A stretch of 41,276 nt of DNA from Candidatus Bathyarchaeota archaeon (lineage in GTDB: Archaea > Thermoproteota > Bathyarchaeia > 40CM-2-53-6), in NCBI GenBank assembly GCA_005882895.1, contig VBBD01000027.1, positions 1-41,276 of the forward strand. The letters run 5' to 3'. Shown here piece after piece: positions 36,496 to 38,747 of this stretch. The notes under the pieces were generated by a model that saw only the letters and a list, made by a program, of their open reading frames with translations, was not told where the DNA came from and searched no databases. Position numbers and translations under genes: made by a program. Each line of letters opens with the position of its first letter. Within the stretch, counting starts at the first letter, position 1.

Positions 36496-37296
36496 TTGCC
36501 CGATACCCTGACGCTTCCGATCCTAAGTGAAATAGTTCCAAGAGGGTTTGGTTATGGAAAGAACTACTTGGTCGAATTTGACCCTCATTCCTTATGGTAC
36601 GAAGCCTCGCTCACAATTGCTACGCATTCGCTGAAACGTGGCATTAAGACTGACTACCATACTTTCACGCATATTCCAGACGAGATCAGGGAGGCGTTCG
36701 CAAACCTCGGACTGAACGTCAAGAAACTGGAGGATGATAATACACTAAGAATCGTGGACAGCTATTCCCTTACGACCTTGCTCAAACGGTCTAAGGAGGC
36801 TGAGAAGAGCGGAATAGTCCAATCTATGGAGAGATCCCTCAACTTAAACGACTGGACAAAAGATAATTTTGATTTTGTCAAAGAAGAGATTCCAGAAATC
36901 GAGAAAAACCGATTGCACATCGACGACGATACTTCCGTACTAGTATCATACAACGACGAGAAGACTTTCATCGACCACTGGCGGACTAGTGCGATTCCTT
37001 GGGCGAGAATCTTTGGCTGGGCGATGTTGCACTCTAGTGTAACTGGGGCGTATTCTGAGAACTTTTACAGACAGTTCGAGTCTATCTGCGACGGGATTAT
37101 TGACTTTAGGAGCCGGGAAGAGAATGGGATGATCGAGCATTATATCAGATGGAGAGCGACTCGAGGCAAACCTCTCGATTCTCGATGGCGTCGCCTACGG
37201 TTATCGAACAATGGAGAAGTGACGTTGACTGCTGAGTCCCGACCGGCCGCTGAACTGGGGATCGGTAGATGGCTTAGAGGACCAAGAAAACAGTAA
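36496..37296 (+). CDS. RecA/KaiC-like protein lacking a Walker A motif
   Basis: A 266-residue protein whose N-terminal half looks like an archaeal KaiC/RAD55-type domain: IVPRGFGYGKNYLVEF where GxxxG-x-LIEG is expected, then EASLTIATHSLKRGIKTDYHTF, and DNTLRIVDSYSLTTLL matching the strand after the Walker B region. The P-loop position reads DPHSLWYE, with no GKT/S, so nucleotide hydrolysis seems lost. The C-terminal half (about 150-266) is not recognised. TTG start with a GATTAATAGG box about 33-42 nt upstream. It may be a regulatory or scaffold descendant of the ATPase family. Confidence 0.55.
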   Translation: MPDTLTLPILSEIVPRGFGYGKNYLVEFDPHSLWYEASLTIATHSLKRGIKTDYHTFTHIPDEIREAFANLGLNVKKLEDDNTLRIVDSYSLTTLLKRSKEAEKSGIVQSMERSLNLNDWTKDNFDFVKEEIPEIEKNRLHIDDDTSVLVSYNDEKTFIDHWRTSAIPWARIFGWAMLHSSVTGAYSENFYRQFESICDGIIDFRSREENGMIEHYIRWRATRGKPLDSRWRRLRLSNNGEVTLTAESRPAAELGIGRWLRGPRKQ

Positions 37297-37311: not shown

Positions 37312-37668
37312 CTAAGCGCCAAGTTGCACTAGCCTGGTCATCTTGTCAGCCCAGACCATCAACGGCGCCACTAGCATTGTCAACTCATTTCCTTCTTTTG
37401 TTAGATGATATTCTACTCGCGGCGGAATTTCGGCGAAGGCTTGACGCTTAACTAGCCCTGTCCGTTGAAGATCCTTCAGAACCTCTGTCAATGTCTTCGC
37501 GCTTATGCCTGGGAGTTTTTCGGCTATCTTGTTGAAGCGTAGGGTTCCATCGTTTCCTAGTAGGGCTAGTACGCAGAGGGCCCATTTTTTGCCGATGATC
37601 TCGATTATTCCTTCGCATGGGCAGGGGCAGATGCAGCATGGTTCCCCTTCTTTCGTCCTTACCATCAT
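37312..37668 (-). CDS. HxlR-family winged-helix regulator with Cys-rich N-terminus
   Basis: A 118-residue HxlR-type transcription regulator: IIGKKWALCVLALLGNDGTLRFNKI, PGISAKTLTEVLKDLQRTGLVKR and PPRVEYHLTKEGNEL are standard family parts. HxlR proteins usually carry one N-terminal Cys before the first helix; here five are packed into residues 11-18 (CCICPCPC), plus Cys32, which suggests metal or thiol-redox sensing. It is divergent from a Cys/Gly-rich peptide gene, sharing a 66-bp intergenic region with inverted repeats. ATG start at 37668. Confidence 0.9.
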   Translation of the reverse strand: MMVRTKEGEPCCICPCPCEGIIEIIGKKWALCVLALLGNDGTLRFNKIAEKLPGISAKTLTEVLKDLQRTGLVKRQAFAEIPPRVEYHLTKEGNELTMLVAPLMVWADKMTRLVQLGA

Positions 37669-37722
37669 GTAACTCCGTTACTGTTTGGGTACTTGCCTGT
37701 TTAAATACTTTAGAAAAGTAAC
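37669..37722. promoter_or_regulatory. shared divergent promoter with operator-like inverted repeats
   Basis: One palindromic TATA core, TTTAAA (37700-37705), lies 32 nt from the HxlR start and 30 nt from the GTG of the Cys-rich peptide. It is flanked by GTTACT (37677-37682) and its reverse complement AGTAAC (37717-37722). A second inverted repeat, GTAAC-TCC-GTTAC, lies at 37669-37681 next to the HxlR start. The layout fits autoregulation by HxlR and joint control of the peptide. Confidence 0.55.
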
Positions 37723-37734
37723 TGACTAACCGAG

Positions 37735-37854
37735 GTGAAGTGCGGATTGAGTTGTTGCGGCTGCGGTTGCGGCGGTGGTTGTTGCGGGCCTGGTTGCGGA
37801 TGCGGCGGTACCATGGACCGAACAACAGCTACCATTACAGACAAAAGTGCCTAG
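37735..37854 (+). CDS. metallothionein-like Cys/Gly-rich peptide (39 residues)
   Basis: Read from GTG 37735 to TAG 37852-37854, this gives a 39-residue peptide with nine Cys in its first 23 residues (positions 3, 7, 8, 10, 12, 16, 17, 21, 23). Two similar blocks, CCGCGC and CCGPGCGC, are joined by Gly, and a polar tail rich in Thr follows. CxC and CC spacing of this kind binds soft metals in metallothioneins. Support: a TATA box 30 nt upstream, GAGGTGA overlapping the start (also well placed for a TTG at 37747), and the divergent Cys-rich HxlR gene. Not recognised as a known family. Confidence 0.55.
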   Translation: MKCGLSCCGCGCGGGCCGPGCGCGGTMDRTTATITDKSA

Positions 37855-37949
37855 GCGTGAGCTTCCGTGCTCGGGTGTCCTGCCTAGTTCCACTTTTTCT
37901 AGTCCTGAGCCGTTGACTCGAACTTGCAAGACGACGTGTAGAGCGACCT

Positions 37950-38747
37950 CTAGGGCTTGAGACCGGAGATTATCGACCAATCGGGGACCTCCAGTCCTTC
38001 GCTCGCTAGCTCCACCTGGTGCGTTTTCCAGAATGTGGTCCTAACATCCCAGCTATGAAGGAAGCTCCTCGATGCATCAGACCTTATGATGAGATTGCTC
38101 TTCATCTTCTCGACGTGGAGATCTCGAAAGCCTGCTCGTCTTAGCTCTGACAATACGAGGGCAGGTTTAGGAGAGAACCATTCCTTGGGAGGCGTCTTCG
38201 TCCACTTCGGGTTGCTGTCCGCCTCTATCATCAGCTTCTGTCGCCGGTTTCGGGCTATTGGCGAGAGAAATGAGTGAACGGTTATGCCGCCGGGTCTAAC
38301 AACTCGATAGCATTCCGACAAGAGCACGGACAGCTCGTAGGAATCGATTTCTGGAAGAAACTCACTCGAAACTACCCCGGCATAACTATCAGAGTACTGA
38401 TCCCAGAGCCAGGCCAGATAGTCGGCCTTGTACACCTTAACCCGGTTTCTCAGCCTAGCTTGAAGCAATGCCTTGTTCAACAGCCTCGGAGTCCCCGTGT
38501 AGGCGCCTGCGAAAGTGTCCACCACGCGGAACCTACAGTGAGGCAGGAGCCTTGCTACAGGAATTGTAAGCTGCCCTTTCCCACATCCGATCTCCGCTAG
38601 AATGCCTCTCTTAGATTGGATAACGCGTGAGAACTCTCGCGATAGGTTCTCGTACTGTCGAGCGTAGGCCTGCTCCACTTCTCGAGGATCATCAATCACT
38701 TCTGTCAATCTCGAACTCTCGCTTTCTCGATTCCCAGTCTGTGACAA
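37950..38747 (-). CDS. class I SAM-dependent methyltransferase
   Basis: A 265-residue methyltransferase. Motif I is ILAEIGCGKGQLTIPVA (about 49-65), the acidic end of strand two is RVVDTF, motif post-I KADYLAW, and motif IV-like VVSSEFLPE, followed by VVRPGGITVHSF (motif VI region). The C-terminal third (about 190-265) is a substrate-binding part with several Arg and aromatic residues. Substrate unknown. TTG start; it is divergent from the DNA glycosylase gene across 43 bp that hold an inverted repeat. Confidence 0.85.
   Translation of the reverse strand: MSQTGNRESESSRLTEVIDDPREVEQAYARQYENLSREFSRVIQSKRGILAEIGCGKGQLTIPVARLLPHCRFRVVDTFAGAYTGTPRLLNKALLQARLRNRVKVYKADYLAWLWDQYSDSYAGVVSSEFLPEIDSYELSVLLSECYRVVRPGGITVHSFLSPIARNRRQKLMIEADSNPKWTKTPPKEWFSPKPALVLSELRRAGFRDLHVEKMKSNLIIRSDASRSFLHSWDVRTTFWKTHQVELASEGLEVPDWSIISGLKP

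Follow-up and report, generated by a model that had tools for sequence, protein, structure and literature searches.

The window is the whole 41,276-nucleotide stretch of Candidatus Bathyarchaeota DNA analysed here, contig C74 of a 1.97-Mb draft genome that is 86.6% complete. It contains two short genes that diverge from a common intergenic region, an HxlR-family regulator and a Cys/Gly-rich peptide, with 78 bp between the proposed starts (Table 1). The regulator's closest named relatives come from soil MAGs whose titles are Candidatus Bathyarchaeota, Crenarchaeota archaeon or archaeon. A KaiC-like ATPase frame lies beside the HxlR gene (36496–37293, plus strand; 26.9 bits, cutoff 26.6) and was found in 0/16 other family loci, each reaching only about 1.5 kb from HxlR. 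A search against Rfam gave nothing at the gathering score.

Table 1. Features of the divergent regulator/peptide locus, in window coordinates
Feature	Position	Strand	Remarks
HxlR-family winged-helix regulator	37312..37668	-	PF01638, 87.5 bits (cutoff 20.8)
Putative operator GTAACTCCGTTAC	37669..37681	.	exact inverted repeat abutting the regulator start
Shared TATA-like element TTTAAATACT	37700..37709	.	TAAATACTT in 16/16 family loci
Putative second operator GTAACTGACTAAC	37718..37730	.	between TATA and Shine-Dalgarno; imperfect in the window
Shine-Dalgarno-like GAGGTGA	37732..37738	+	GAGGTGA in 15/16 loci, GGGGTGA in 1/16
Cys/Gly-rich peptide MSCCGCGCGGGCCGPGCGCGGTMDRTTATITDKSA	37747..37854	+	TTG start, 35 residues, 8 Cys; Shine-Dalgarno-led Cys frame in 16/16 readable orthologous loci
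Poly-T, possible archaeal terminator	37894..37898	+	39 nt past the peptide stop

The HxlR regulator

The earlier note on this DNA had described an HxlR protein with the motif CCICPCPC, and this is borne out: the motif occupies residues 11–18 and the PF01638 score is well above the curated cutoff. The N-terminal cluster comprises C11, C12, C14, C16 and C18, to which C32 is added. To judge by the orthologs, translation may begin at the second Met (37665). The sequence matches 7bze, 5hs7 and 4a5m, the solved winged-helix relatives HxlR, YodB and YybR, at E ≤ 1.6e-14. The structural model has a mean pLDDT of 80.8 and a secondary structure which fits the winged-helix fold; the Cys cluster is in its low-confidence N-terminus, immediately before helix 1.

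C14 and C16 are invariant across 22 regulators, which were picked by the analyst and all have CxC. Class-wide only the C16 equivalent is general, and it is the sole one kept in 8/39 class loci, where C14 is missing. The 39 class regulators have one N-terminal Cys in eight cases, two in 25 and three in six, and the usual motif outside the family is C-x-C-P-L-E/K/D. C16 aligns with Cys11 of HxlR, the sensing Cys conserved where helix 1 begins, and C18 takes the position of Lys13, the lysine of formaldehyde sensing. In HxlR a methylene bridge between Cys11 and Lys13 flips the N-terminal helix and alters DNA binding (PMC7835342). A metal bridging C16 and C18 might act in a similar manner. With the ArsR/SmtB metalloregulator profile NF033788 the regulator scores only 17 bits against a cutoff of 55.

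The Cys-rich peptide

A Cys/Gly-rich plus-strand frame that ends at 37854 is present, as the earlier note had it, but the 39-residue, nine-Cys peptide proposed there is probably not the product; the likely product is 35 aa with eight Cys, from TTG 37747. GTG 37735 was rejected as the start since it sits inside GAGGTGA and its frame breaks or shifts relative to the Cys frame in 6/16 orthologous loci (L006, L007, L012, L015, L016 and L018). GAGGTGA is read as the Shine-Dalgarno sequence of the peptide, and presumably pairs with 16S rRNA. The family loci retain GAGGTGAAG or, in L015, the variant GGGGTGAAG. In all 16 loci a start codon 5–9 nt past this site opens the Cys frame, the starts being picked by the analyst among candidates (ATG in six, TTG in eight, GTG in one and CTG in one). 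The CTG start is in L013, where a GTG further upstream shares its frame; in L007 and L012 a GTG 3 nt past the site likewise reads into the Cys frame. By a simple rule a Shine-Dalgarno-like motif precedes only six of the 41 stop-to-stop frames of at least 180 codons in the window, many of which may not be genes, and thus its use does not appear general here.

The frame is the sole one of 15–60 codons on either strand of the window with at least six Cys and at least 20% Cys. Within the first 20 codons the chosen frame has 4–8 Cys per locus and the other two frames have 0–2. In five close orthologs of 28 residues, the variable columns of codons 2–14 number 0/0/3 at codon positions 1/2/3; those of the tail number 7/7/12. 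The composition is metallothionein-like in all 16 loci, with CC and CxC motifs and 6–8 Cys in 17–35 aa. The 35-aa product has no match among the NCBIfam profiles, and the 39-aa frame that contains it has none in Pfam, profiles being weak on peptides so short. A run of five or more T is found 15–44 nt past the peptide stop in 13/16 loci, and within 70 nt was not found in L004, L005 and L012.

The shared intergenic region

The central TTTAAA palindrome noted earlier is at 37700–37705 and is more plausibly an archaeal TATA box that both genes share. Either TTTAAATAC or TTAAATACTT is present in 14/16 family loci and 23/39 class loci. The flanking GTTACT/AGTAAC elements were likewise recovered, as GTTAC/AGTAAC half-sites, and the inverted repeat reported next to the regulator proved exact. 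At the position of the second putative operator several relatives have an exact GTAAC-N3/4-GTTAC.

GTAAC/GTTAC occurs 53 times in the 16 family intergenic stretches against 2.4 after mononucleotide shuffling. The signal is weak in the class (17 against 5.8 shuffled; 13/39 loci). By eye the family and class promoter regions look similar (AACTTGA...TTAAATACTTT), which suggests that the partner positions correspond. A genome scan with GTAACN{3,4}GTTAC gave three palindromic sites, two of them outside the window (L049 and L050), and the reversed control gave the same number; no wider regulon is proposed.

Conservation in the family

The peptide/HxlR pair is real and conserved. An HxlR match at E ≤ 1e-10 is present in 19/21 family genomes and an ortholog in 17/21. 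The earlier note had asked whether the peptide frame is kept wherever relatives keep the HxlR gene; a divergent Cys peptide of 17–35 residues with 6–8 Cys is found in 16/16 family loci with readable upstream DNA. In the 17th ortholog-bearing genome (G009) a contig end cuts the locus before the HxlR start, and the upstream region is unreadable. The pattern TAAATACTTN{12,38}GGTGAAG, which spans promoter and Shine-Dalgarno, matches exactly once per genome in the same 16 of 21 family genomes, with no match in the other five or in the reversed control.

One relative, G014 (93% complete), represents a joint decay of the regulator and the promoter, Shine-Dalgarno and operator motifs. What is left of its HxlR is a remnant containing a stop, and exact copies of the motifs were not found at the locus, which keeps the FTCD and glycosylase neighbors together with a partial 43% match to the methyltransferase. 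Absence of the ortholog from G003, G008 and G020 is weak evidence, as these genomes are 67–79% complete. The methyltransferase of the window gives little clue to function: only some family loci have a tblastn match to it no further than about 1.5 kb from the pair.

Pairing in the class

A homolog at E ≤ 1e-22 is present in 54/256 class genomes. Of 43 class rows outside the family 39 were inspected, three near-identical rows and one at a contig edge (G131) being left out; the near-identical pairs L064/L065, L086/L088 and L073/L078 are counted separately. On visual inspection, HxlR is faced in 28/39 loci by a small protein whose N-terminus carries a Cys motif (2–6 Cys; only two in L063 and L075). 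Many are MC-x-EC-x-C or Cys/His-rich proteins with what looks like a coiled-coil tail, and five are tiny at 19–28 aa (L058, L063, L072, L075 and L082). The pairing is not confined to the window locus.

A fixed rule (Shine-Dalgarno-like site, start 25–170 nt away, 15–80 aa, at least two Cys in the first 16) detects a partner in 24/39 class loci, a count that includes one frame within a thioredoxin (L081) and one internal start (L089), and in 16/16 family loci. It detects none in 13 paralogous HxlR loci, a narrow control in which 12 of the 13 appear to form a single orthologous group and the real starts could be further upstream than the anchor (14 loci were taken; L003 had no blast hit and was dropped). 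Random anchors give 460/10800 (4.3%).

The partners in the other 11/39 class loci are thioredoxin-like (five), methyltransferases (three), CopD-like (two) and MFS (one). The CopD-like naming is weak (34.4 and 44.7 bits for 110-aa pieces, cutoff 195), and two of the five thioredoxin-like proteins were profile-checked. Named by resemblance, with no profile, are L087, the thioredoxins L081, L085, L088 and L103, the methyltransferases L077 and L080, and all ABC ATPases. The number of Cys in the regulator varies with the type of partner: at least two N-terminal Cys are present in 26/28 regulators facing small Cys-motif proteins versus 5/11 facing others (Fisher p=0.003, ignoring relatedness).

L073, L076, L078, L089 and L090 encode an uncharacterized 41–55 aa type with C-x3-C near the start, CS-x-x-QI-x-ECHP and HPC; neither of the two members scanned has a Pfam match. 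An ABC-type ATPase is seen by eye downstream of the small Cys-motif protein in 9/39 class loci (L053, L055, L056, L057, L070, L073, L076, L084 and L089) and could be an export route. In L061 a heavy-metal P-type ATPase (TIGR01525, 448.7 bits, cutoff 346.25) is encoded downstream of the small Cys/His protein, and a masked stretch separates the two.

Partners outside the class

Partners were inspected in 15 of 25 rows outside the class, and the inspected loci do not include the bacterial HxlR homologs L040–L048. L114 has a divergent mercuric reductase MerA (TIGR02053, 553.6 bits, cutoff 454.45) and L117 a divergent heavy-metal P-type ATPase (TIGR01525, 397.9 bits, cutoff 346.25). The partner is a DsbD_TM protein in L104 (27.7 bits, cutoff 27.1), thioredoxin-like in L103 and a small Cys/His protein in L095 and L115. 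In 8/15 inspected loci a Cys-rich or metal partner was not recognized, and these display membrane proteins of unknown role or nothing recognizable.

L116 has a divergent 35-residue frame holding DACWCGCGCC, 111 nt from HxlR, which is possibly a tiny Cys peptide. In L039 (titled Nitrosarchaeum), L109, L110, L112 and L113 a CxCP-type HxlR faces a similar membrane protein of 255–261 aa; that of L112 has a DUF6789 match below cutoff.

Proposed circuit and rival explanations

The best explanation for the locus, to which we give a probability of roughly 0.55, is a metal-responsive HxlR repressor that controls a mini-metallothionein-like peptide. The HxlR protein, presumably dimeric like other members of its family, would sit on the GTAAC/GTTAC putative operators overlapping both start sites, and both genes would be repressed. 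A soft metal ion (Cu(I), Zn, Cd or Hg) would bind the N-terminal Cys cluster before helix 1, and the metal-bound repressor would leave the DNA. The peptide would then be made and buffer the metal, and repression would return when free metal falls. What the sequences show are the conserved genes and frame, the Shine-Dalgarno-like site, the shared TATA-like element, the half-sites, the joint decay in G014, the enrichment of small Cys-motif proteins opposite related HxlR genes and metal-handling partners at three loci; repression, the metal as signal and metal binding by the peptide are the inferred parts of the scheme. The layout suits a repressor of both genes, since on the peptide side an operator-like repeat comes after the TATA-like box and before the expected start site, and on the regulator side one abuts the start codon. 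The start sites were estimated from the usual TATA-to-start spacing.

The earlier note had a wrong start codon for the peptide. Its idea of a metal or redox circuit gains support from what related HxlR genes are paired with across the class and phylum: small Cys-motif proteins, thioredoxins, a MerA at one locus and heavy-metal P-type ATPases at two. Several observations weigh against the metal reading. C14 is missing in the 8/39 class regulators, 11/39 class loci have other partners, 8/15 loci outside the class lack a recognized Cys-rich or metal partner, and the family half-sites are in only 13/39 class loci. The thioredoxin partners fit thiol stress, and the ABC-type ATPases of nine class loci, as in drug export, argue against a purely metal role. 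HxlR members of known signal sense electrophiles, oxidants or formaldehyde (PMC7835342).

The main rival, which we regard as unlikely on balance, is a thiol or electrophile switch where oxidants, quinones or aldehydes would modify C16 and the peptide would be a sacrificial thiol scavenger. C16 aligns with the electrophile-sensing Cys11 of HxlR (PMC7835342) and is kept even where C14 is lost, and the five thioredoxin-like partners in the 39 class loci and the DsbD_TM partner of L104 would suit such a role. The clearest profile-named partners, however, are MerA and heavy-metal P-type ATPases, His-rich partners (e.g. L053 and L057) fit metals better than electrophiles, and the excess of regulators with two or more Cys opposite small Cys-motif proteins (26/28 against 5/11, relatedness ignored) also speaks against it. 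The signals of YodB, HypR and QsrR are oxidants, quinones or aldehydes that modify a conserved Cys. A formaldehyde sensor like Bacillus subtilis HxlR, with a peptide that traps aldehydes, would agree with the family membership and the conserved Cys, but is very improbable because Lys13, required for the Cys-Lys crosslink (PMC7835342), aligns with C18.

The remaining rivals concern the peptide. The very short frame with its dense Cys codons might be a leader peptide (attenuator) for a downstream gene, which is the least probable reading of all: neighbors vary and poly-T is within 44 nt of the stop in 13/16 loci. A local attenuator was rejected for the window, where the next gene is convergent (37953–38747, minus strand). 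Azole-peptide precursors are Cys/Gly-rich, as is the peptide, which could make it the precursor of a thiazole or other RiPP with HxlR as the pathway regulator. There is hardly more to recommend this, as neighbors on the peptide side vary and YcaO, the only RiPP enzyme searched, is found at E ≤ 0.001 in 0/21 family genomes (several incomplete) against 5/14 control genomes. The metal-responsive repressor with its peptide remains the preferred reading.

Comparison with known systems

The cyanobacterial SmtB and SmtA genes are divergent, like the pair described here. There a small Cys-rich protein that binds metal is under the negative control of a repressor, and this protein, SmtA, is 56 aa long and coordinates Zn through eight Cys and two His (PMC12193353). 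The present peptides are 17–35 aa with almost no His and the window product has no NCBIfam match, while the regulator is an HxlR and not an ArsR protein, as its low NF033788 score indicates. If the metal circuit holds, the pair would best be explained as a functional analogue of SmtB/SmtA built from unrelated parts. HxlR/DUF24 regulators (HxlR, YodB, HypR/YybR, QsrR) often have divergent targets, and the window regulator resembles them in its winged-helix PDB relatives and N-terminal Cys. It differs in having five Cys in eight residues before helix 1 plus C32, a Cys at the Lys13 position and a Cys-dense peptide as partner.

MymT of mycobacteria and other bacterial metallothioneins are likewise small and Cys-rich with metal-induced genes (PMC12193353). 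The present peptides are archaeal, have only 17–35 aa and another regulator family, and lack a profile match. DUF5320 (PF17253) matches 4/10 scanned small or partner proteins weakly at the coiled-coil end (best 21.5 bits, cutoff 27), every score being below cutoff, and a tail of this kind is absent from the window peptide.

Archaeal metallothionein circuits seem to have been little described. A cadmium study of Thermococcus gammatolerans reports an absence of orthologs for metallothionein biosynthesis (PMC3407056), and another paper treats metallothioneins in general terms (PMC3600143). Searches of open-licence papers gave none with the phrase "archaeal metallothionein" and no description of an HxlR/Cys-peptide pairing.

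Significance

The conserved pair suggests a miniature defense against toxic metals or thiol stress. A broader proposal, offered tentatively and at less than even odds, is that the CxCP-type HxlR proteins are an unrecognized phylum-wide family of metal sensors wired to metallothionein-like effectors, which in the soil lineage have shrunk to Cys-dense peptides of 17–35 residues. This would be the first archaeal metallothionein circuit, with some of the smallest genetically encoded metallothioneins.

Gene callers that impose a minimum length can easily overlook so small a conserved unit. With two short genes and a 78-bp region the locus lends itself to testing as an archaeal metal or thiol switch. 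Should the signal be a metal, the HxlR family would extend from electrophiles to metals, and a Cys-rich effector would be reduced to as few as 17 residues, the length of the L015 ortholog.
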